The notes below the pieces were generated by a model. That model was not told the DNA's origin. It did not search any database and saw only the letters and a list, made by a program, of their open reading frames with translations. DNA of 64,000 nucleotides from Tricholoma matsutake (lineage: Eukaryota; Basidiomycota; Agaricomycetes; Agaricales; Tricholomataceae). This document shows positions 22,291 through 38,616 of the stretch, piece by piece; position 1 is the first letter of the stretch, and each line of letters opens with the position of its first letter. The DNA is taken from contig AP026538.1 in the NCBI GenBank assembly GCA_026075535.2, forward strand, positions 11,222,001 to 11,286,000, written 5' to 3'. The translations under genes were made by a program, and so were the position numbers.

Positions 22291-23200
22291 ATGACCAGTG
22301 AACACATTGACCATTTCAGACAGTCGCGGCCTCACACTCTCCCCAAGGGAGATGGAGCACCAGCAACAAGAAGAAATGAGGACAATCCCTTTGGGTCGAA
22401 CTCTACTTTCATGGCTGTCAGACCCAAATGACAGATGGGACCTGAACAACAGCAAAGAGGAGGAGAACAGGACCAAGAATTCAGAAGAGACCTTGTGGCA
22501 AGAATTGACCAGATCATCCATGACTTCAGAGACAAAAAAGTTGCCAAAATTGAGACTCTTTATCAAATCCTGCGAGTCGCCCAAGAAGCAGATGTCAATG
22601 AACAAGTCAGACAAGCAGCCATCAATGACTATGCTACACAGGTTGACCTCATTGATGCACAGCAGTGAAGTGCCAAGCAACAAGGTGAACATGCAGCTCA
22701 ACTGGCTGGAATCAGCGATGAGAGAGTTGCCACAAGAGAACCAATCAGAGGTGGACCCTTACAAAGGGAGACCCAACAAGAGGAATCAGATGATGATGAT
22801 GTTGGGAGATTCTTGCGCAACCTACGAAGGAAACTCATGAAGAAACGTAGACATCATAGTCCAACCGACTCTTCTGACTCAGATGGAGATTCAACCACAG
22901 TGAAGGGAGAAGGGGAGTCAAATAAGAAGAAGCATCTATACCAGTCACAACTCCCATGGTACATGGTTGAAACTAATGCACAGAACCACAAGATTGACGA
23001 GAGCCGAAAGAAGACAAGAGAAATCCTCAGGATTCTCCAACGAGACATTACCTTTGCAGAACGAGATGTACAACGCTCAACTACTGCGCCCCAAGGATTC
23101 CCTGACTCAGAGTGGCGACACATCTTCTGTGGTGAAGCAGTCAATCTTGACGTTGTCCTTAGCAATCTCCACCACGTTGCCCCTCCTAAGGAGAATGTTG
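22291..23200 (+). pseudogene. DIRS gag-like ORF, 5' portion
   Basis: ATG at 22291 opens MTSEHIDHFRQSRPHTLPKG. The frame continues to the transposon junction with only two TGA codons (22429 and 22666), both at likely Arg positions. Features are a helical segment (FRRDLVARIDQIIHDFRDKK), a Ser/Asp-rich part (HHSPTDSSDSDGDS) and FPDSEWRHIFCGEAVNLDVV, a pattern common in ORF1 of mushroom tyrosine-recombinase elements. After 23200 the frame runs on into the inserted transposon for about 30 codons, which are not part of the protein. The true continuation is at 36823. Confidence 0.8.
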
Positions 23201-23227
23201 CATCAGGAAAAACCTCATTTACAAATG
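23201..23227. repeat. Left terminal inverted repeat of the Plavaka element
   Basis: CATCAGGAAAAACCTCA, then TTTACAAATG. The first 17 bases are identical to the inverse of the right end. Confidence 0.88.
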
Positions 23228-25157
23228 GACATCCATTAGTAGAAACTTGTTTTACTTTACCTACAATTTGTTGTATAAATAGGATTTTTGGCAATTACTG
23301 AAATTCCCTGCATTAGTAAATTTTAAACTGGTCCTTCACAGAGTAATGTCTAAAGCAGGGTTCTTTAGTGCAAATTTTTGGGAAATTTGCACCTTCAAAG
23401 TCAATATTTATCAGATTTCTAGGCTTTTCAGACAGGTTCAATTATGGCAAAAAAAAAAATTGTGCCAACTAAAGACAATAAATAATGTAATGAGCAAGTA
23501 ACAAGTTATGAGGTTTAACGAGACAAGACAGACACCATCAGTAAATAGGGTATGAGGTGGCCAGAAGGGATTAAAAGGACAGTAACAGGTATATGGGATG
23601 GGTATGTGGAATCTGATCATACAAAGCTGCTGAGATCTATAAGCTCAAGAGCGTCTTCACTTCCCTCAGTAGTCACTTTCTTGCTAAAGGAGCTCTTCAG
23701 TAAACCGTGACAAGGCAAAGGCTAGTGAGGACAGACTTGCATCACACGCAGGTAGAGCTCTGACATGATTGCATGGTATGCTTTTACATTCTGGGCCTTG
23801 ATTCCCTCGAGATCCCTGCAAAGTGCCTTGTAGATCATAGCAAAAACATTGCCCTCAAACATGGCAGCAACTTTTGATCCAGTTTTCCATTTGTACAGAG
23901 CAGCATATATCTATAAACAAAGGTCAAGGCATTGAAGAAAGGGGTTACCATGTAGGAACGAGACATACCCTGGTTCCTGCAAGTGCAACTATTCTCAATG
24001 GTAGCTCTGGTTCATCGTGGCCATCTAAGCTTGAAACACAGTCTGAAAGGATCAAATAACCAGGTGCTCATGGGGTGTTGAAAAAGCTCAACCTTAGCAC
24101 ATCAGAAATTACTGAGATAAGAAAAGGTTTGTCCACCTTATATTTCCATTGCTGTGGTGAAATATATTAGACAAAGCAACATAAATTAGAAGATCATACC
24201 TCTTTTTTTGTCTTTGGGTCAATTGTCCAAGATCCAGGGAATATGTACACCTTGCAATCATAAAGTGCCTCAACACATTCTATGCACCTCGAACCTACAC
24301 CCAGCTCATACGCCGCTATTTCTACTGAGGCATTTGTCTTGACAGGGCCTCAAATAACAGGGAGACGATCAGTAACCTATGAGATATGTCAGTAATTATA
24401 TGATTAATTATCAACCACATACCAGTTTACCAAGAGTGTCACAGAATTGCGTATCAATTTTGAGATGGTTGTAGATATCCCCAGCAGGAGGAATAATTGA
24501 TCTAACTTTGCAGGCTGCCTGCAATAAAAGTACACGATAATAGTTGACTTTCTTGTCTGCATCAATAAATACATCATCAAGGAGAGTTTGCCTAGTGAGC
24601 TGAGTGATCGCGCCTCAGACAATTTGTCCAATAAAACAATGTTGTTCTGTGAGTAGAAGACCTTTACCCATGGGAGGGAGAACTAAGGTGGTGTGCATGG
24701 GCCATTCCAAGTTGGTAGTCGCAGCTGTTGAGTTCTTCTCCTTCTTGAACTTCAGCAGGACACTTTGCTGGACGCTTGGTTTCTATGTAGTAAAAATGGT
24801 TGTCAGTGATGAATAATTCTTGACTAAAAGCAAACACACTTCAGCAAGGAACACCTTACCATGTTGAGTCATATTCTAAAAGGAATGAAATTTGCAGTTA
24901 ACTACTATGGTGCTGAAATGTGTCCACATACCGCTGATACAGAGTGCCGATGTCTGACCTTTGGATCAGTATCAGGTTCATCACTTTCCTCATCTAATTT
25001 AGGCTTCACAATGTCCTGATCTGAGTCAGTTGTAGGTGGAACTGAGTAATGACTTGACATTGAAGAGCGATGGCTAGAATGTTCAGTGACAAGGAGCATG
25101 TTGACATCACTCTTGGATGAAGCTACCCCTTCCTTAGTGTTGTCAAAATCAAGATCA

Positions 25158-25423
25158 TGCTAAAGTCTGAGGTTGCCTTTAGTGCAGTTTAACCTAGCAA
25201 CTGTGAAGGGAGACTCAGATAGACTGAACAGCTGGAGTCCAGAGTGAGCAACTGAAGAGTGCAAAACTCCAGACTCTGCAGTCTACATACTGTGAAACAA
25301 ACAGTGATAAACATAAGGTGGAAAACTACTCTAAGTGCCCATGAGTGTAACTGCAAGTGATAGGACATGGAATAGAAATAGGATGGAAGTAAAATAGAGA
25401 GATGGTGAATCATACATTTAACA
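25158..25423 (-). repeat. 3' LTR of the copia element
   Basis: 266 bp. It is nearly identical to the right LTR apart from a 55-bp extra stretch in the latter. Confidence 0.95.
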
Positions 25424-25460
25424 CCCCCCCTTGATAAAGCAACTCTCAAAATCGCTGAAA

Positions 25461-28247
25461 TCACACCTTTAAACCAAGAAGAGTCCAGAATTTTTCCACC
25501 ATTACACAAGGTAGTGCCTTGGTAAGAATGTTGGCAAGTTGGTCAGTGGTGGGGATATAGACAGGGGAAATGGTGCCAGCTTCAACTTCATTGCATAGCC
25601 AGTAGTACTTGAGATCAAGGTGCTTCATTTGTCCATGGTGCTCTGGGTTTTTGTAAACAGTGAGAGCAGACTGGTTATCAATGAAGAGAGTGGACGAACA
25701 ATCAACAGGATATCCAAATTCCTGTAAAATGCTGCAAGTCCACTTGATTTCCTTTCCAGCCTCTACTGCAGCAACAAACTCAGCCTCTGTGGTGGAAAGC
25801 ATCACAAAAGGTTGTAACCAACTCTGCCAGTCAACTGCACCTCCACTGACACAAGTCAAATAGCCACCAGTTGAGCGACCATTATCCTTGTTACCACCAT
25901 GGTCAGCATCAGTGTAAGTTGTGAATAACTCACTACCATCCTCATCAGGTCCATAGACTAGTTTGTAGTCCATAGTACCCTTGAGATAGCAAAGTAGATG
26001 CTTGACTGCAAGCCAATGACGAGGACCAGGGTTGTGGTTGAAACGACCAAGTACACCAACTGTATAAGCAATGTCCAGACAGGTGGTGGTGGCAAGGTAC
26101 ATCAAAGACCCAACAGCAACCAAATAAGGAACATTGCGCATTTCTGCAACATCTTCCTCTGTTTTGGGGCACATGTCAGAAGTCAATGAAAGGGAGGGAT
26201 CCATGGGAGTCAAGACAGGTTTGCAATCTGACATACCAAAACATTCAAGCACATCAACAATGTACTGATGTTGGGAGAGGGAGATGGTGTGATTTGTGAG
26301 GTCATGAGTAATGTGGATGCCAAGTAGGAATTGAGTAGGACCAAGATCATGAAGTTTGAAATGGGATTTGAGATCTTCAACTACCTTGTCAATGGCAGAA
26401 GTAGAAGTCCCAGCAAGAGTAATGTCATCGATAAAGATTGGAACAATTACCCTGACTTCACCTCATGTGTAAATATAAACAGCATGGTCCGCTTCACAGC
26501 GTGTAAATCCCATAGCTGTCAATACCTCATGGAGGTGAGCATTCCAGTTGCAAGCAGATGGTTTCAACCCATAGAGAGGTTTACACAGCAGACAAACTGT
26601 GTTTGGGTTACCTTGATGGAAACCCTCGGGTTGGCGCATGTAGATGACTTCCTCAAGTTCTTTCCCAAGTAAGAAAGCATGGGAGATGTCAAGAGAGTAA
26701 AGGTGGAGGTCTTTCCTTGCAGCCAATGCAAGAATTAGCCAAAGTGAAGCAGGACGATAAACTGGGGAGAACGTAGCGTCTTCTGCATATTCAAAACCAG
26801 GGCATTGGGTGAAACCCTTAGCCACAACCCGACCTTTGTAATGCTCAATGGAGCCATCAGCATTATGCTTGATGTTAAAAACCCATTTGCATCCAACTAC
26901 CTTTGCACCAGGAGGTAACTCCATATAATCCCAAGTCCCATTCTCAAAATGATTGTTCATCTCTGCATTTGCTGCCTCCTGCCATTTTCATGCATCTGAG
27001 CACTTCATAGCCTCCTTGAATGACTGTGGGTCTGCATAACAAGTAGATAATGCAAGATCAATACTAGAATCTGAACCATCACCAACAACTGGACCAGACT
27101 CATCATCAGATGAAGGTTGATCGAATTGTGGAGCTGGGATTGGAGCAAGGGGCTCATTCCAAGCCTGTGGTGGCAATCCAGCATTCTTGCATGAATTAGC
27201 AGCTCGACGCTCTAAAAGTGGAGGAAGTGATGGAGGAGGAGATGAAATTGGGGTCTGAGGTGGAGATACAGCAGGTGTCTGAGTAGGAGGAGTGGGAGTG
27301 TGAGGGGTAGTATTAGCAGAAGGAGAAGAAGCAGGAGGAGTAGGAACAGGATCATCATCAAGATTAGTTACACCAGAAGGAAGAATTGCCTGTACAGGTT
27401 CAGGATCAATGTCACTAAGATCAGGAACCATCAAAGGTGTAAGATACTTGGACATGATGAGAGGGGAAGAGGGATCAACAGGTGGCTCGTTCCAAGTGTG
27501 TTTGAGACCAGGAAAATAGTGCTCATCAAATTCAGTGCGTTCACAGATCACAGTATGCTTGGTCACAGGATTGTAGAATTTCCAGGCTTTGTAACCCTCA
27601 GGGTAGCCAATGAAAGCACACTTCTCCATGTGAGAGCCAATCCCAGTATGCTTATCCTTCTGGATGTGAACATATGCAGCACAACCCCAAACTTGGAGAT
27701 TTGAGACATCTGGTTTACATTTATGCCAGAGTTCAAAGGGGGTTTTCTCTGAGAGGGAATGAGTGGGACACTTGTTCTGGACTGTGATGTATGCATTGAC
27801 AGTCTCACCCAAGAAAGAAGGAGGTAAACCAGCTTCATAAAGCATGTTCCTCAATACTGCAGTTCACTCATTCAGCAATGCCATTCTGTTGAGGTCGATT
27901 GCAAACAGTATGCAAATGTTCAATCCCACACTGATCCATGAATGCAAGGAATTCATTAGACATGTACTTGCCTCCCTTGTCATCAATCATAGCCTTGATT
28001 TTGCGATTCCAGTGATTCTCAGCTTTCGCTTTGAATAACTTGAATGCATTAAATGCCTGATCTTTGGTACGAAGGAAGTATTTGGAGCAGAAACGAGTAT
28101 TGGCATCAATGAAAGTGATCCAGTAATGATACCCAGAGTGAGTACGTGACCATGCAAATTGGAGTGGATGAGATCAAGGGGATTGGCAGCATGACTAGAG
28201 GAAGTGGGGAATGGATGTGCATTCATCTTGCCAGCTAAACAAGGTTA
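25461..28247 (-). pseudogene. Copia pol (integrase, RT, RNase H), protease missing
   Basis: The reading begins LAGKMNAHPFPTSSSHAANP, the end of the GAG-pre-integrase domain. The integrase core has WITFIDANTRF (Asp), MIDDKGGKYMSNEF (Asp) and RPQQNGIAE (Glu). RT follows from about 26960 (NGTWDYMELPPGAKVVGCKW) with SLDISHAFLLGKELEE and the active site IFIDDITL near 26430. RNase H has TYTDADHGGNKDNGRST and MLSTTEAEFVAA, ending LPCVMVEKFWTLLGLKV at 25461. Two TGA stops (near 27870 and 26463) replace Arg. The DTG protease and most of the pre-integrase region are absent, so the copy could not process itself. Confidence 0.88.
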
Positions 28248-29139
28248 TGGGTTGAGAGGAACGATAACTTGCATTCCCAGCAAACTCAGCCACTGAAGCG
28301 GCAGTAGCAACAGCTGCGCTTTCAGGAGAGGAGGGTGATGTGGAGGATGTGGTTGTAGAGGTGTTAGCAATGCGAGACTGCTTGGGTTTATGTGCCTCCG
28401 TCTTTGCAGCAAGGAATTTCCTGCACTGAGGTAGGGTATGACCTTTAAATCCGCAAAAGTTGCAGAGTAAACCAATAACTGAAGAGGTGGCTAGAGCAGT
28501 ACCAGATGTGGAGTCACTGGAGAACCCAGAATGACATTCACGGTTTAATTGCTCATTCCTGAACGCTTCATGAATAGTAGAGCGATCAAGATTGTCGATG
28601 AGCATGAGGGAAGAGATGAATGAGGAATATTCATTGGGAAGGGCACAGATGAGAGCCATGGAGTGGAGTTCATTGTCAAGGTCATCGAGGGTGAAGCCAG
28701 AGGGATGGAGATCCTTGATAGCACGGACCTTCTCAGAAACACAAGCTATGAGACCTTCCAGGCCCTCACTCTCTTGTTTCCTAACAGAGAATAAGTCATC
28801 ATAGGTATTGAAGCACATACCAGGCTTCTTTGATTGATTCCCTCTCTCCAACAGCTCCCACATCTTCTTTGGATCATCAAAAACCCCACCCAGGTGATGC
28901 TTCTGGTCATCCTCAACATGCAAATAAATGTCCCCAGCCCCCTTATCCACTAGTTGAAACCACAAACGATGTGCCTCTGCATCCCCAGGGCTAGGCTCCT
29001 GTATATCACCAGTCACAACCCTCCACCACCCCTGTTTACGTCCCCAGGCAGCCATCTGATCCTTCCAGGAGGCATAATTGTGATTGTTGAGCTTTGGGAA
29101 ATTAGGTGATGAGTTGGACATGTTTGCAGAACGATGCAC
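28248..29139 (-). CDS. Copia gag
   Basis: An uninterrupted frame, MHRSANMSNSSPNFPKLNNH or from the inner Met (MSNSSPNFPKL). It shows the UBN2-type capsid pattern: YASWKDQMAAWGRKQGWW, then DQKHHLGGVFDDPKKMWELL and later LPNEYSSFISSLML. The zinc knuckle is CNFCGFKGHTLPQC. A Ser/Thr-rich tail reaches FAGNASYRSS, where intact relatives go on into the protease; here the sequence jumps to the pre-integrase tail. The frame runs to 28195 but the last residues are a shifted reading of that next domain. Confidence 0.85.
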
Positions 29140-29593
29140 TGAGAAGCGAGCGTGGGCGCGATTGGGGTAAGCATAGGTGCATTTGAGGGAATGGAAGGTG
29201 CCGAATCTGCCTGTTGAATCCGTTCGACGATAGCATTTGAATTGGGCGTGTGCGAGACGATTTGAGCGAAGGGTGTAATTTGAGTGTTTGGTGTTTCAGA
29301 TTTGTGATGAGCGCTGAGCAGGGAACTGTAGGCATGTTCGACTATCGGTGTTAACGGGAGGTGGGGGGTATGTCCCCAAGTGTCCTAGAAAAAGGACTAA
29401 GCGATCTGACCAGTGGGCAATGAGGAACATTGAATTTGGTGGGAAAAGCATGATAACTCCAACAAGGGCTTGTTGACCAACAACCAAGGCACACAGAATG
29501 GAAATTGTAGGTGCTGGGGGGTTATTGAGGTCAGGGAATTCACTGAGAGTGGTTTCAGAGTGATTGGAGTTGATGTGAAGTCACTAGGGTGCA

Positions 29594-29605
29594 GGGCCCA
29601 TAACC
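29594..29605 (-). other. Primer-binding site of the copia element (half tRNA-iMet type)
   Basis: GGGCCCATAACC (plus strand) directly abuts the 5' LTR at 29606. It equals the anticodon stem-loop sequence of eukaryotic initiator tRNA-Met, so the element's RNA carries the complement. Priming from a cleaved initiator tRNA is known for Drosophila copia and yeast Ty5. Confidence 0.75.
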
Positions 29606-29926
29606 TGCTAAAGTCTGAGGTTGCCTTTAGTGCAGTTTAACCTAGCAACTGTGAAGGGAGACTCAGATAGACTGAACAGCTGGAGTCCAGAGTGAGCAAC
29701 TATATATTATATGAGACAATAAGGAGTACAGTACCTGGAGTCCAGAGTGAGCAACTGAAGAGTGCAAAACTCCGGACTCTGCAGTCTACATACTGTGAAA
29801 CAAACAGTGATAAACACAAGGTGGAAAACTACTCTAAGTGCCCATGAGTGTAACTGCAAGTGATAGGACATGGAATAGAAGTAGGATAGAAGTAAAATAG
29901 AGAGATGGTGAATCATACATTTAACA
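29606..29926 (-). repeat. 5' LTR of the copia element
   Basis: 321 bp. It is longer than its partner by a 33-bp AT-rich filler (29700-29732) plus a second copy of the 22-bp flank that starts CTGGAGTCCAGAGTG, a small post-insertion tandem duplication. Confidence 0.93.
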
Positions 29927-31142
29927 GATCAAGATTGTCAAAGAGACCCTGAGCAGAAGAACATTGTTTGTGTTCGAGGATGGCAGGTTGCTAGAGAGAT
30001 GAGCCTTAAGTAATCAATGATTGAAATATAGACAAGTCAACTCACCTCATCACCTAGCATCTTTTGTAAAGTCTTGCTATCAACATGCATAAGGTCGTCC
30101 TCATCCAATTCAAAAGACTGCAAATCCTCAGTTTCACTTTCGACAGCAGAGTCCGATTCCTCATTGGATGCTACCTTGTTGTTGACTTCTAAACTGCCAG
30201 TGTGAGAAGGGGCCTGGCAGTGCTGAGATCATGTCAACTTCAACATATTGATACCAGAAAATCTTCATCTTTGTAGTCCCTAGGCTGACATGAGGTTTGG
30301 AGTGGACTAGAACATGGTAAGGTTAGTTGAAGCTTGACAGCTTATGGAATGTGAAGATACATACCTCTGGGTGCAAGCACAACCTCTTGATCCTCAGATC
30401 CACTGTCACCATCAATTTGAGCAGCTGGGATGCATTGAACGTTGCTTGTTAACTTGCCAGTACTAGGCACTGAAACATCACATCATTAGTCAGATCAATG
30501 ATTGAATATACATGGATACACATGGATACACAACTCACTTTTCAACTTTAATTTCATCTTCTCCTTAGACTTTACGACCTTGAGCTCACTCAGTGCTTCT
30601 TTTACATCCTCTTCTTGGGATATGGTCTGCTTTGCTACACCTGTGGAAGATCATTATCTCAGATATTCGAAGATTGGGTGACTTCTTCACCTTTTGTTTT
30701 CTTTGACTTTTGGCGCTCCTTTGTCGACTCCTCAATAGGTGATGCAGCCCTCTTGTTTGATGCTGGGTTCCATACTGCTTATGGTCAGCAACAACCCCTT
30801 GTGATAGATCATAGGTCACCCTACCTGCATTGCTTAATGCCTTGGTTTTGGCATTATGTGTAAACTTTGCACTCCCCCCCATATTCCTATCAGAGTCCTA
30901 GGAGTCCGAGTTTTCCAATAAGAGTCCGATCGGAATCCAATAGGAGTCCTACTAGTCCGACAATAGTCCTAGGAGTCCAATAGGAATCCGATCGGAATGT
31001 ATCTTGATGACCATGTACTTTTATTTCCAAGAAATTCCTAGTAAATTCTGAGTAAAGTCCTATGCAATTCCAACAGGTAGTAGTCGGAATACCACACCAT
31101 TTTGGAAGACTTAACTTGATGAAAGTGCTTACAAAATAATTG

Positions 31143-31227
31143 GGCAGAGCAGGAATTGAACTCTAGACCTTGGGATATAAGTGACATGACTACCAAACAA
31201 GTGCTCAACCAGTTGAGCCACAGGAGC
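31143..31227 (-). repeat. tRNA-like sequence (SINE-type)
   Basis: On the minus strand: A box TGGCTCAACTGGTTGAGC and B box GAGTTCAATTC at tRNA spacing. The acceptor ends do not pair, so it is not a functional tRNA. Confidence 0.5.
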
Positions 31228-31622
31228 ATTAATAAATAAGTAATATAAAGTCCATTTAAAGCACTTAGGATTAGTTCACTTATTTTTAACCTCTCTCACA
31301 AGAGCTCGAAAAAAAACTGTTGAGCCCTCGCATCTTCGCGAGGGAGTAGATAACTAATATAGATTTTTAAAAAATTCCCCATGCAAATGCGAGGGGGAGA
31401 ATTGATTATACTATTTAATTATACTATTTTAAATTCTACAAAAAAAACCCACCCCCCCATTTCACAGGGGGGAGGGGGTGGTGGTGCGTCTCTCATCAGC
31501 CCTGTCCTGTTATTTCCCCTCCCTCTCATCTCCGTCATGTCTTGCCTCCCTCACCTTGCCTCCCCCGTGGCTTCCCTCCCCTCCCTCGTCTCCCCTCCCT
31601 CATTGTTCCACCCACCGTCCAC

Positions 31623-32052
31623 CCCACGAGCAGTTGCTCACGAGGCTGGTGGTGGGTGGTGCGTCGTATGTTGGTGGGGGTGTTTGTCCATCGTCCCCTC
31701 CCTCCCTCCCCCTCCCCTTAAACACCCTACAAGCAGATGCTCGTAGGCGTGCATGGGGCAGGTGTCACCATCGTCTCCCCTTCTGGTCATCGTCTCCCTT
31801 TCCCCTTGTCGTTTTGTCACCCTTGTCATTCATTCCCCTCATCGTCTGCACCCATGAACCACCCTATGGGCAGCTGCTCGTAGGCATGTCATTTGGTGCC
31901 GTCATTGTCCCTCCATGCCATTCCCATGTTCTCGCACCCCATATACGCTCCATGAGCAGTCGCTCATGGCAGTGATGGGGGGTGCTGGATGTCATTGGTG
32001 TCGTGGGGGGTCCATGCACTCATGATCCACCCTACGAGCAGCAGCTCATAGG
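31623..32052. repeat. Palindromic repeat block, copy B (five units)
   Basis: Variants of CC(A/T)ACGAGCAGNNGCTCGTAGG begin near 31623, 31726, 31862, 31950 and 32031, each about 20 bp and separated by 80-140 bp of pyrimidine-rich DNA. Sequence differences usually keep both arms complementary. Confidence 0.7.
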
Positions 32053-32629
32053 CATGGGGTGGGTGCATTGTCAGTTTGTCAGTGACGTGGCTCGAGGGGA
32101 GGGGTCAGGTGGTGCTTACCGGGCGGGTATTCCCCTTCTGGGGTCTCCTGGTGTTGCTCCCCATGCTCCTGACCATGATCGATACCCTCACATCCCATTT
32201 TGATGGGGAGGAGGGGGGTTGCCAGGGGCATCGTTGGGTGTGGGTTTGGCTCGCATCAGTCCATCGTTACTCATGTAGATTAGAACCTAGAAACAAAACA
32301 AATGAATTAGTTAGTTTACAAAAGTAAAAAATGAATGAAAAAAAAAACTTACTATGGCCCAAACAATGATTGCGTTGTTTGGGCATCGTTCGGCATCGAA
32401 ACCAGTCGTTTCCGGTCTTGGGGGCTTGTCTAGAGATGGGGGGTGAAGTGGTAGTGGTGGGAGTTGCTGGGTTGAGGTGGTTGAGGTGGGGGGATGGAGG
32501 TGGCATGCTTGTCGTCATTGGTGGTGGTGGTGGGAGTTGTGATGAGCTGGCAGGTGTGATGACGCGGCTATGTGCTTTGTCATCACACCCGCGGGAAGGT
32601 ATGTAGTGTAGTATGATCACTTACCTGTA

Positions 32630-32712
32630 ATGACTGTTTAGCCTAATGGTATTGTTGTCAGTTTATGCTTACATAATCTTCTGTAGTCAAGTGTTCAATT
32701 CTCGTGTGTGCA
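32630..32712 (+). repeat. tRNA-like sequence (SINE-type)
   Basis: A box-like TTAGCCTAATGGTA and B box-like GTGTTCAATTCTC lie about 50 bp apart. The sequence resembles that at 19548-19630 (TAGYCTAATGG, GTTCAAT). No full cloverleaf. Confidence 0.45.
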
Positions 32713-33192
32713 TTTAATTTTTCATACTATATTACTAAGCAAGGCTGCTTTCATTCCTATCGGAATCCTATGTTGTCTGATGTCTTAGCATAACTTCGGA
32801 CTAGTCCTATGTGATTTATATGATCGGAAATTCCTAGGAAATTCTGATAGTCCGATCGGACTCTGAGCGGACTACATCGGACTGGACTAGGACTAAATGT
32901 GCCATTTCATGTCAATTTGGCTCATGAAAATGACATCGGAATATGGTTGGATTCCGATCGGAGTCCGATCAGAATCATCGGAATCATTGGATTCCTATAG
33001 GAATATGGGGGGGAGTGTAAAGACCTCCATTATGTGGCCCTTGGTTCATCTTGTGAATAGTGTGGTATTCAGTGGTGGCATTGACTTACCAAGCGTAGAC
33101 TCTATCAACTTCTTGTTGGCCTCATCTTGCTGTAACTGGTTGTGCACCCTTGTAGCGGCTGCTTGCTTTGCTTTGTTGGTCTTGTCTGACAT

Positions 33193-33466
33193 TATGTGCA
33201 ATTAGAAACTGATGTGAAGGACAATAGAACTTCAAGTGAATGATGGGTAGTTGGAAATGGTAGATATGTTTAAAGGAAAGACTTTCGAGAAAGAGGGAAT
33301 ATGTTATGTTGTGGGGAAGGAAGGGAAAATTTTTCTGTGAGTGTGTGTTTGTTCAATGTTCAACTTTGCACAAGCTGACATTGCCCCAGTTGCTTACGAT
33401 AGCCAGTATTTCTAAATATCAAGTTCGATCAACTTAGCAATATTGTTTTGATCTCAGACCCCAACC
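33193..33466. promoter_or_regulatory. Shared gap between the two divergent Plavaka genes
   Basis: 274 bp between the ATG of the DUF6532-type gene (minus) and the ATG of the transposase (plus). It must hold both promoters. No clear TATA box; a pyrimidine-poor AT-rich stretch lies before each start. The call rests on position alone. Confidence 0.4.
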
Positions 33467-36400
33467 ATGGCCTCAAGAACCCAGTCATACATATGTTCTG
33501 CTTGCTTATCGGGCGGTTTCACTCAGACTGGCTTGCAATCACACTTACGACAAAGTACTGATCTACGTTGTACTGCTCTGTATGAGCAGATGATGGATCT
33601 GTCACTTGACAAGTCCAAGGACCAAAGTGAGGATGACAACACACTCAGTGGACCTCAGCCTTTTGCAGGCGACATGTTTGGAGGACCAGAAGACTATCTT
33701 GGTGACAATTTTGGGCAGGCAAATGGTGAGGAGGAAGAGGAGGAAGAGCATGTAGACCTTGAGGCTGACTGGGAGCCTGAGTGTCCTGGTGCACACGGAG
33801 CATCAGTAGCTGCTTTGGGTGACTTTGACCAAGTGCACGCTGAGGAGCATGCTGGTCATGAACTAATGCCTAATGGGCCTCAGTGCCAGGTGGAGAGTCA
33901 CATCACTGAGAATTCCTCTGTTGTTTGCTATTCCGACAAGTATCCCCACAGCCAAGCTGGAGCAGCTGTTAAGCAAAAGCAGCCAAGTGATGTGAAGTAT
34001 CGTGCAGACCTGGACAGCTCTTCAAATCTGTGGGCTCCATTTTCCTCCCAATTGGACTGGGAAATTGCAAAATGGGCAAAGCTACATGGGGCAGGATCAA
34101 CAGCATTTTTGGATTTACTTGCTATTGAAGGAGTAAGTGACATCCATAGGATTATTTACATACACTCATCATGATTTTTTCACAGGTTCATGATGCACTC
34201 AACCTTTCTTACAAGAATTTGAACGAGCTCAACAAAATTATTGATCAAAAGCTTCCTGGCTGCCCCACATTCCAATGCTGCAAAGTTATCATCACCGATG
34301 AAGCCTTCAAACTGTTCTCACATGATATCATAGAATGCATTAAGGCTCTGTGGGGAGATGTTGATTTTGCTCTGTATCTTGTGGTGGAACCAGAGCATCA
34401 TTATGCTGACGCTGATCAAACAATATTGCTTTACTTTGACATGCACACAGGAAAGTGGTGGTGGTCAACTCAGGTATGTTCATAAGCAATCAGTATCTCA
34501 ATAAATTCTAATCGGAATACCAGAAAGAGCTTGAGACCCAGACAGGAAGAACAGGATGCACGATCATACCTGTCATTATATCTTCTGACAAAACTCAACT
34601 CACCATATTCCATGGGAAATCAGCCTATCCTGTGTACATGACCATTGGCAATCTTCCCAAACACATTTGACGCAAGCCATCGAGGCAGGGCCATGTTCTC
34701 CTAGCCTATCTTCCCACTGCTAAACTTAGTCACATCTCAAACAAGTCTGCATGGTGTCGTACTCTTGGCAACCTGTTCCACATCTGCATGAAATATATTC
34801 TCAAATCATTAGAGAAAGCTGGCATTGATGGGATTGAGATGATGAGTGGGGATGGTATCGTGTGAGATTGCCATCCAATTTATGCCACCTTCATTGGTGA
34901 TTACATGGAACAGATTCTTGTTTGTGCCATTAAAAATGGAGAGTGTCCAACATGTCCTGCAGCTCATGATGAGCTTGGCAATCCCGAGAGCATTGGAGAA
35001 CCTTGTGAACTCGGAAGAATTCTCAAGGCATTCGATACCATCAGTCAAGGTCCTACTGAGTTTATGTGGGCATGCCACGCAGCTGGTGTCAAGCCGATAC
35101 AGCATCCATTCTGGGAAAACCTCCCATTCCTCAATATCTACCAGTCAATTGCCCCCAACGTCCTTCACAACCTCTATCAAGGTGTTATCAAATACCTGAT
35201 ATCCTGGCTTTGAACCATATGCGGCGATCCTGAGATAGATGCACGATGCCATAGACTTCTGCCAAATCACAATGTTCACATTTTTATGAAGGGGATCTCA
35301 CATCTCTCACGTGTGACTGGTACCAAGCATGACCAAATTTCATGATTTCTTCTTGGCCTTATTATTGATATCTGACTGCCCAACAACATGTCTCCAGTCC
35401 GTCTCCTATGTGCTGTGCAAGGCATCCTCAATTTTTTGTATCTAGCAAGATACCCTGTTCACACCAACGAAACACTTGACCTTCTCGATGCTGCCCTGAA
35501 GCATTTCCATGACAACAAAGACATCTTCATTGATCTTGGTGTTCATGCAGATTTCCACTTTCCCAAGGCCCATTTCACAGGACATTACCAACAATTTATT
35601 GAGCTCTTTGGCACTATGGATAATTATAACACTGAATACACTGAATGGCTACATATAGATTTAGCCAAGGATGCATATCGTGCAACAAATTTCAAAGATG
35701 AGTATCCACAGATGACTGCATGGCTTGAGCATCATGAAAAGATCCTCTGACATGATGAATTCCTCTGACGGCAGGCACCTACACACAACCCTCCTCTTCC
35801 CCGACCTCCACCCTGCTTGCAAGCTTAGGATGACAAAGCATCCATCTGTCTGCGGCATCAGTCTCGAGTCACTCAGGACTGACTACAAAGCCATATTCTT
35901 CAAAGCTGCTCTTGCTCATTTTATTGCTCAGTATCAAAACCCCAGATATACAAAGGCTCAGGTTGAAGTGGCATCATTGAACATCCATTTCCCATTCTGG
36001 AAGCTCCCTGTCTACCACCAAATCAAATTCACATCTCATGACCCTTACAGTCTTGACAATGTGGAGACTGTTGTCGACTCGGTACATGCTCAGCCAGCTC
36101 ACTCAGATAAGTACAGGAAGGAGATCTTGGGTCAATTTGATACAGTGCTTGTGAATTATAATGAAGGTGGTGTAACCGGTGTCAAAGGCTAGTCTTGTTC
36201 ATGAATCACTAGCATTGTATGGAATCTAATTGAGTTATTTCAGGCCACTGTGTAGGGAGAGTGCGTTGTGTGTTCACTCTTCCTTCTAATGCCCTGAGCA
36301 ATTGGTTTTCATGGCTTGGGCGGACACCTTCTAAATATCTCGCATACGTCAAATGGTTCACACCTTTCCCGAATTCACCCGATCCAAGCCACTTACTGTA

Positions 36401-36602
36401 CAAAATTTCCAAACTTTGTGTGCATGGTGAACAGCAAGCAAGCATCATCCCAGTTCAGTTGATTTGTCAGAGCATACATCTTTTTCCAAAATTTGGACCA
36501 ATTGTGCCACATGAATGGAAGTCCAACAATGTTCTTGATCTATGTCACACCTTTTTCACCAATCCATTTTCTGATTGTTTTCCTTACTCCAACTTGTACT
36601 GA
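33467..36602 (+). pseudogene. Plavaka transposase, broken
   Basis: Starts MASRTQSYICSACLSGG with a Cys/His zinc finger (C-x2-C, then H and C). An acidic region (GEEEEEEEHVDLEADWEPE) leads to the Plavaka core: LDWEIAKWAKLHGAGSTAFL, an intron (about 34132-34186), LNLSYKNLNELNKIIDQKLP, MHTGKWWWSTQ, IPVIISSDKTQLTIFHGKSA, NLYQGVIKYLISWL, ISHLSRVTGTKHDQIS and YNTEYTEWLHIDLAKDAYRA. The C-terminal piece at 36240-36602 has LAYVKWFTPFPNSPDPSHLL. Stops at 34668, 34863, 35212, about 35341, 35374, 35748 and 35767 are TGA at sites where Arg is expected. It would be the enzyme that moved the 23201-36820 element. Confidence 0.8.
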
Positions 36603-36793
36603 ATAGTATCATGAATACTTATGACCATCTTATCTTGTGAAATATCTGGATAATTACATTACACTCTTTGCTTTGTTAATGACATTTGCTACAATTACCT
36701 GGGAGTTAGTTAGATTTTGTGTTCATTCCTCCTATTACCTACTTTCCTTGGCTGTTAGTGACATTTCTAGTATGGCGGCAGAAGTTAGTGCTA

Positions 36794-36820
36794 AATTTGA
36801 AATTGAGGTTTTTCCTGATG
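36794..36820. repeat. Right terminal inverted repeat of the Plavaka element
   Basis: Ends TTGAGGTTTTTCCTGATG at 36820, the inverse of the left end. Confidence 0.88.
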
Positions 36821-36822
36821 TG

Positions 36823-37331
36823 GCCACGTTGGAAGAACAGAAATTTCTCTTGGAAGCGCATATCCAGTATGAAAGGTCCAAACAAGCAGTGATTGGACAG
36901 CTGCCTGGAATGCGACTGTCAAAGCGACTGCATATGCTTTCCCACACCGAGACAACGAGTTGTGAGAATGGGGGGACTATCTTTCATCTGAGTTCTCAGC
37001 CAGGCAAATCAGCGCCCACCACAAGCTCATTGCCTTTGACAAAGCAGTCAGAACTCGAGTCACAGGAGGACAAGCAATTTTGCTCACAGACCATAATGAA
37101 TTCACCTATCTCTACTTGGCTTTCCTCCTTCCTGATGGTATCCAAACAGGTGCCACAGGACGATGAGGTGACAGTGACCACAGAACCAGGACAGCATCCA
37201 ATGACATTTGCTGCAGATTCAACAGCGCAAATGGGTGCCAAAGCCCAGCAGGGACCTGCCGCTTCCATCATGCCTGTATCCAATGCAAACAATTGGGCCA
37301 TGGGAAAGAAAACTGCCCTCAGCAAGCATGA
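36823..37331 (+). pseudogene. DIRS gag-like ORF, 3' portion with zinc-binding end
   Basis: It resumes the frame left at 23200 (codon split G/GC): GHVGRTEISLGSAYPV, DWTAAWNATVKATAYAFPHR, SARQISAHHKLIAFDKAV. The end is Cys/His-rich: ICCRFNSANGCQSPAGTCRF then HHACIQCKQLGHGKENC, a CCCH-like finger plus a CCHC-like knuckle. The stop is TGA at 37329-37331. Internal TGA codons lie at 36870, 36963 and 37164, all where Arg is likely. The RT frame overlaps or directly follows in a different frame, as is usual in this class. Confidence 0.8.
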
Positions 37332-38616
37332 GGCATGTTATGGCTTGCACCCTAAATACCTCTGTTACAACATGTGGGAGGCACCGGAAAAGCGAGAGGA
37401 TGATGAACATAGTGATAAGCTCCAATGCCTAGCAGATTGGACTGAATGGGCCAGACCTCTCCCTTCAGTACCTACCTCCGAATACAAAAATGCAGCTGCC
37501 ATGCAGACAATCAATGGCCACCCCAATCTTTTCAAGATTGTCACACCAATCAATGTTGATCGCTTTGAAGCCCTGTTAGCCACACATCCAAATCGTCCGT
37601 TTGTTGAGTCCATCTGCAAAGGGCTAAGGGAGGGATTCTGTCCATGGGCCGATACCCACCACCAAGAATATCCTTCAACAGTTGATGAAGCACTGGATAC
37701 ACCCAAGTGTGGACCAGAAGCTGATTTCTTGCATGCGCAGCAGGACCATGAACAACTGGCAGGGAGATTCTCTGGCTCTTTCAGTCGAGATCTCTTACCA
37801 GGAATGCACACATCACCAATCCATGCAGTGCCAAAACCTCACTCAGACAAACTATGCATGGTGATTGATCAGAGTGCTGGCTTATATTCTCCAAATTCTA
37901 TGATCAAATGCAAGGACATCCAAGGATTTCCTTTAGACAACATGACACACCTTGGTGAAGGACTTATACGTCACCATCAAGCTGAACCTGACCAGTCATG
38001 GATAATTTACAAATCCGACATCACCGATGCATACCGACTACTTCCCATGCATCTGTTATGGCAGATCAAACAGATTGTCACCATCGATGGTGAACATGAT
38101 GTAGACCATGATAATTGCTTTGGCAGACGAGGATCGCCCAGGATTTACATCTCTTTCAATGGATTAGTAACATGGATTGCACAGAGGATTGAACTCATCA
38201 GAGATCTTTGGACCTACATGGATGACTCATTTGGAATTGATGAAGAGGGTAACCTTGTTTGGTATCACAGGTATCAAAAGCACATGCCTATGAACCAGGT
38301 CAAGCTTCTATCCCTCTGGGATGAACTTGGAATCCCACATCAGCCACACAAGCAACTTTTCGGGTCCACCCTCACCATCATTGGCATCCATGTCAACCCA
38401 AACAGTTTGATGTTCACCCTGCCTAAACAAGCTCTCGATGACCTCCTTCAGGAAATTGAAGAGTTCACGGTCTGGTCAGAGAACAAACATGGCATGTCAT
38501 GGACCCTGCAGAGGTGGCAACGACTCGCTGGATGGATCAACTGGAGTTTTAATGTCTTTCCATTGTTGAAGCCTGCACTCAATTGCCTCTATCCCAAGAT
38601 TGTGGGCAAAGACTGA
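37332..38616 (+). CDS. DIRS/Ngaro-like reverse transcriptase
   Basis: Open over its whole length. It includes FEALLATHPNRPFVESICKG, LLPGMHTSPIHAVPKPHSDK, IQGFPLDNMTHLGEGL, the first catalytic Asp in KSDITDAYRLLPMH, FISF-type ISFNGLVTWIAQRI, the active site TYMDDSFG, and KQLFGSTLTIIGIHVNP in the thumb. Residues upstream of 36821 in the same frame belong to the transposon end, so the 659-codon open frame there is a chance fusion. The real start is unclear; RT may be made by frameshift or reinitiation from gag. A frameshift near 38616 separates it from RNase H. Confidence 0.85.

Follow-up and report, generated by a model that had tools for sequence, protein, structure and literature searches.

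Does the DUF6532 gene that lies head to head with a Plavaka transposase in the genome of Tricholoma matsutake belong to the transposon, and, if so, does it serve the element or only ride in it? The question is raised by a stretch of 64,000 nucleotides (C1:11222001-11286000, the prefix C denoting contigs; hereafter, the window), which was studied within the whole genome of 161,040,721 bases in 13 contigs. An earlier reading of the letters alone (the sequence-only reading) had described there a transposon of the Plavaka type, a name reportedly given by Iyer et al. in 2014, had taken its DUF6532-type gene for a partner or a cargo of the transposase, and had supposed that many DUF6532 genes are transposon genes. 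Our answer, to which we would assign a probability of about 0.8, is that the DUF6532 gene is a built-in and selected second gene of PlavakaB-type transposons, on the basis of the anatomy of the elements, the co-divergence of the two genes and the selection acting on them; within this genome the supposition holds, as the pairs are frequent, divergent and co-diverging.

Two genes between shared ends

The PlavakaB-type DNA transposon of the window occupies 13,620 bp, two nested insertions included, and is organized as follows (window positions):

23201..36820, no strand: PlavakaB-type transposon (17/17 bp terminal inverted repeats, TG duplication, putative empty site on C5)
23201..23217, plus: terminal inverted repeat on the DUF6532 side, CATCAGGAAAAACCTCA
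36804..36820, minus: terminal inverted repeat on the transposase side, CATCAGGAAAAACCTCA
23199..23200, no strand: target site duplication TG, left copy (flank reading and empty site)
36821..36822, no strand: target site duplication TG, right copy (flank reading and empty site)
33467..36602, plus: Plavaka transposase gene, spliced, inactive (PF18759, E 1.7e-98; exons and stops read)
33193..33466, no strand: spacer of 274 bp between the two start codons, from their positions
23687..33192, minus: DUF6532 gene, spliced, with two insertions inside and an approximate 3' end (PF20149, 28.9 bits)

The sequence-only reading had called the element exact to the base, with identical 17-bp repeats and a TG duplication, and both points are borne out: with up to 2 mismatches, CATCAGGAAAAACCTCA has only two matches in the window, which are the two terminal inverted repeats (0.04 expected), and TG stands on either side of them. 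In a whole-genome pattern search for the joined target, with 0-2 bases between the halves, a single match was obtained, C5:9618616-9618638 on the minus strand, which carries one TG and therefore indicates that the transposon inserted with a 2-bp duplication; judged on its 23 bases, it may be taken as the empty site. The target joined across one TG did not result in a single open frame, which leaves the C5 pattern match as the one piece of evidence for the empty site.

The plus-strand gene had rightly been recognized as a Plavaka transposase, since PF18759 covers it over profile positions 1-325 of 325 (E 1.7e-98, with stops entered as X); a DUF6830-like C-terminal part is also present (E 1.9e-5), and the translation contains CPTC, a candidate for the first of the C(2)C and H(3-4)H motifs that PlavakaB has from the second D to the last E. 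The spliced minus-strand gene is likewise of the DUF6532 type, as had been claimed: its exons, joined by hand with X at stops, score 28.9 bits with PF20149, above the Pfam gathering cut-off of 24, and the profile search of the genome finds a match of 26.7 bits at window positions 23969-24385. The start codons are placed head to head (33467, plus, for the transposase; 33192, minus, for DUF6532), which leaves exactly the gap of 274 bp that had been described, possibly a bidirectional promoter, and in close relatives this spacer measures 258 bp (the C11 copy) and 274 bp (the C4 copy).

Both sides were inspected for 15 pairs, namely four stretches of 9-9.5 kb, eight and then two further pairs, and the window. 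In six of the 15, both genes are enclosed by two ends beginning with CATCAGG, which places the DUF6532 gene inside the transposon, as the sequence-only reading had it, and five of these six have matching 2-bp duplications:

C1, window 23201-36820: duplication TG
C4:3077289-3083490: duplication TA
C13:5644569-5650756: duplication CA
C1:16262286-16268296: duplication TG
C1:1464954-1471654: duplication TA
C11:7777130-7788019: flanks TT/TC, no matching duplication

In the copies other than that of the window, the inverted repeat is exact over 7-12 bases. The remaining nine pairs have a single end, no more than a version with one mismatch, or no end at all, as might result from truncation, nested insertion or divergence. 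On a broader sample, CATCAGGAA was found within 1.5 kb past the domain, in the orientation of a closing end, at 17 of 28 DUF6532 loci, the other three placements giving 2, 0 and 0 of 28 (two loci, L055 and L058, being second matches of counted genes, were left out, and at L033 the motif is unusually far, 1482 bp). The idea that every genome match of the end-motif pattern is a transposon end had to be rejected: 6 of the 30 fetched read CATCAGGAAGAACCTC, all of them then continuing as RTGGTAYAGATACC, and these look like part of another repeat. No subterminal repeat array common to the elements was seen.

As to the frequency of the pair, the lists began with the genome-wide profile matches (105 for PF20149; 167 for PF18759, 150 of them used), were widened by searches with the window and relative proteins, and were then merged into at least 74 DUF6532 and at least 143 Plavaka loci. 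The Plavaka list excludes about 25 weak rows, with E values between about 4e-5 and 9e-4 and for the most part confined to a single stretch of 66-71 residues, and 123 of 786 Plavaka and 150 of 831 KDZ candidates were scored, the locus counts being lower bounds. Of the 74 DUF6532 loci, at least 37 have a Plavaka locus no more than 10 kb away, and the divergent arrangement for which the sequence-only reading had proposed to look beside Plavaka transposases, counted at this distance, is found in 37/37 pairs. The 37 include both C1:10.14 Mb and C1:11.57 Mb, seemingly two copies of one segment; these two loci (L047, L048) are in opposite orientation, have equal scores and spacings, each contain a Plavaka-DUF6532 pair, about 5.4 kb from which lies a KDZ transposase, and would seem to be an inverted duplication not far from the window, KDZ neighbours included, as judged by scores and spacings and not by DNA alignment.

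The long-term partnership that had been proposed is supported by the way the two genes diverge. Among 18 pairs the DUF6532 and Plavaka distances are correlated with a Mantel r of 0.927 (0 of 10000 permutations), and with r 0.847 among 9 dereplicated pairs (3 of 10000); the 18 come from 25 pairs with DNA for both genes (37 pairs overall), seven, the window included, being too divergent for exon profiles. This co-divergence spans up to 77% protein difference. The ratio of nonsynonymous to synonymous change (dN/dS) has a median of 0.19 in DUF6532 and of 0.17 in Plavaka, taken over the 32 comparisons, sharing sequences, that fell within the dS and length limits out of 153 possible, and both genes look to be under purifying selection. 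The window's own relatives show a similar association: the four Plavaka loci that score highest against that of the window (100, 78, 76 and 63% identity) adjoin four of the five DUF6532 loci of the window type, while at the fifth, C6:1.109 Mb, no Plavaka was detected among the matches listed.

Several observations weigh against this reading. Among the matches listed, 37 of the 74 DUF6532 loci are without a Plavaka partner and 105 of the 143 Plavaka loci are without a DUF6532 partner, and behind two unpaired Plavaka genes no DUF6532 was found within 5.0 and 4.5 kb, respectively, one of these stretches carrying reverse-transcriptase-like sequence. Not every Plavaka, then, need carry a DUF6532 gene.

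Decay and insertions of the window copy

The window copy is, from its sequence, a dead one, because its transposase has in-frame stops and its DUF6532 gene contains two insertions. The stops are seven, all in the exon from 34524 and 7/7 of them TGA, and are tentatively read as CpG-type decay; there is also an apparent frame change near 35800. The sequence-only reading had allowed only two original genes between the ends, which is right once the two nested insertions are subtracted:

25158..29926, minus: nested Ty1/Copia-like retrotransposon, recognized by eye from open reading frames, GATCA either side
30861..33028, no strand: nested element of 2.2 kb with terminal inverted repeats and hAT-like 8-bp flanks, ATTATGTG either side

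The first splits the DUF6532 gene, and its long terminal repeats are unequal in length, with one aligned block of 96 nt at 100% identity and another of 192 nt at 98%. The second, with imperfect inverted arms of 76 nt that are 80% complementary and with no coding sequence assigned to it, interrupts the same gene, and is missing from the C4 copy (L075), which is 95-99% identical in three aligned pieces. An end sequence resembling that of this second element also interrupts the Plavaka copy on C10 (L063). Around the transposon, retroelement-looking sequence was noted at 22669-23200 and 36823-38616, with a long right-hand open reading frame that is reverse-transcriptase-like by eye and for which Pfam gives RVT_thumb only, at E 0.15.

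Partner, shield or passenger

If the gene belongs to the element, a functional partner is to be favored over a passive cargo, because DUF6532 and the transposase have about equally low dN/dS values. A structure model made for a Mycena protein of the family predicts an all-helical fold (predicted local distance difference test, pLDDT, 84.9). On that model, the candidate identity of DUF6532 as a divergent TET/JBP protein was rejected, as it lacks the double-stranded beta-helix fold (HxE..H) of the TET/JBP dioxygenases (PE type). A Foldseek search of the family model against the PDB and viral libraries gave nothing at E < 0.001, which does not imply a new fold; by sequence there were 0 matches in the PDB, and a protein search with a short piece from the window gave 2 matches, which were uninformative. 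The succession of events that we propose would be: (i) the DUF6532 gene is transcribed away from the transposase out of the short shared spacer; (ii) it moves together with the transposase inside the CATCAGG...CCTGATG ends; and (iii) the all-helical protein binds the element ends or the promoter, helps the transposase to assemble at these sites, or modulates expression. In other words, the likeliest of the roles considered, though at somewhat less than even odds, is that of a DNA-binding or regulatory subunit that would act like TnpA beside TnpD in En/Spm.

Alternatively, the DUF6532 protein would shield the element from methylation-based silencing, much as VANC proteins have an anti-silencing role in plant Mutator elements. 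We rank this role second and consider it unlikely, although there is matter in its favor: TET/JBP enzymes are proposed as anti-silencing factors in other fungal transposons, and the accessible text of PMC12730594 mentions them as carried by some PlavakaB families, so that such helpers have been used in the lineage; CpG hypermutation is reported in T. matsutake (PMC6980582, in the part available), in keeping with the TGA stops of the transposase exon; and the role seems to have been left free here, since TET/JBP was found within 10 kb of Plavaka at 0/61 loci among the matches listed. However, the family model, all-helical as it is predicted to be and with no confident enzyme match, would not be that of a dioxygenase, and nothing in the present data points to an effect on methylation. 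The TET/JBP loci are themselves numerous (61, many with open frames of 189 aa), and at least two of them have a KDZ transposase within 10 kb.

More improbable still is that an ancestral PlavakaB took up a host gene, which has since travelled in the element and does not aid transposition. In favor of this, most Plavaka loci, among the matches listed, are without DUF6532. There is also the type of copy that the sequence-only reading had named as telling against its own claim, bounded by the same ends but without DUF6532; one such element was read through (C3:2157536-2162815, 5,280 bp, with identical 18-bp CATCAGGAAAAACCTCAT ends and a TG duplication), and it does lack the DUF6532 gene, but it lacks the transposase too and looks like a non-autonomous derivative. 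Against a passenger are the dN/dS near 0.2, about equal to that of the transposase and not expected of a neutral one, the fixed divergent placement, and a co-divergence maintained over so wide a range of protein difference. Moreover, the unpaired DUF6532 loci that were read resemble the transposon-paired ones in 7/7 cases, so that no clear host gene was seen among these seven.

Finally, that DUF6532 lies near Plavaka by coincidence, both sitting in transposon-dense regions of a genome in which repeats make up 71.6% (according to the part of PMC10211490 available), can practically be dismissed, since 2000 rounds of random placement yielded 1.2 on average and never more than 6 against a first count of at least 34/70 DUF6532 loci within 10 kb (about 1 expected against the at least 37 eventually seen), the KDZ control gave at least 2/74 at the same distance, apparently from one duplicated segment, and neither the uniform head-to-head orientation nor the shared ends nor the co-divergence would follow from it.

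If the DUF6532 gene is thus a selected second gene of these transposons, PF20149 could, at what we regard as even odds, largely correspond to an obligatory second protein of PlavakaB, a novel class of cofactor for transposition in eukaryotes, one that evolves fast and is matched to its transposase, and most DUF6532 genes of the Agaricomycetes would be living or dead transposon genes. A Pfam family of hitherto no known function, present in many mushroom genomes and with PF20149 matches in Mycena, Pisolithus, Suillus and Laccaria, would thereby be traced to transposons; CACTA-like transposons would gain a second-protein system that can be tested directly, and annotators a marker of PlavakaB. In the available text of PMC8955403, DUF6532 and Plavaka are both listed among the domains of two Ganoderma genomes, and DUF6532 among those confined to parasitic and symbiotic fungi; such a listing, as well as DUF6532 gene counts, may mirror transposon load.

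Comparison with known two-protein transposons

In the open-access literature searched, no paper was found that links DUF6532 or PF20149 with Plavaka as a pair, the only one there to name DUF6532 being PMC8955403, and an earlier description is possible. CACTA/EnSpm elements proper differ from the window element, in which the CAC..GTG ends and 3-bp duplication of that group are replaced by CAT ends and a 2-bp TG. En/Spm, of the CACTA type, makes two proteins, TnpA and TnpD, from alternative transcripts, and it is in having two element-encoded proteins that it is alike; here, in contrast, the genes are divergent, and DUF6532 is likened to TnpA by role and not by relatedness. The transposases are only distantly related, within the CMCT clade (PMC12730594, in the part accessible).

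PlavakaB itself is defined, in the portion of Kojima (2025; PMC12730594) at hand, by CATCA..TGATG ends and duplications of 2 or 3 bp, and the window element fits by its Plavaka transposase, its 5'-CATCA..TGATG-3' ends and its 2-bp duplication; the difference is that some of the families published there have TET/JBP as their extra gene, where here it is DUF6532. The TET-carrying fungal transposons of the same source share with it an accessory gene beside the transposase inside a DNA transposon, although the family model of DUF6532 is predicted to be all-helical and not a double-stranded beta-helix dioxygenase. The Nuwa/Harbinger elements, named there as two-protein systems with a Myb/SANT DNA-binding partner, likewise combine a transposase with a separate protein, a likeness by description and not by sequence, in which DUF6532 would be only possibly the DNA-binding member.

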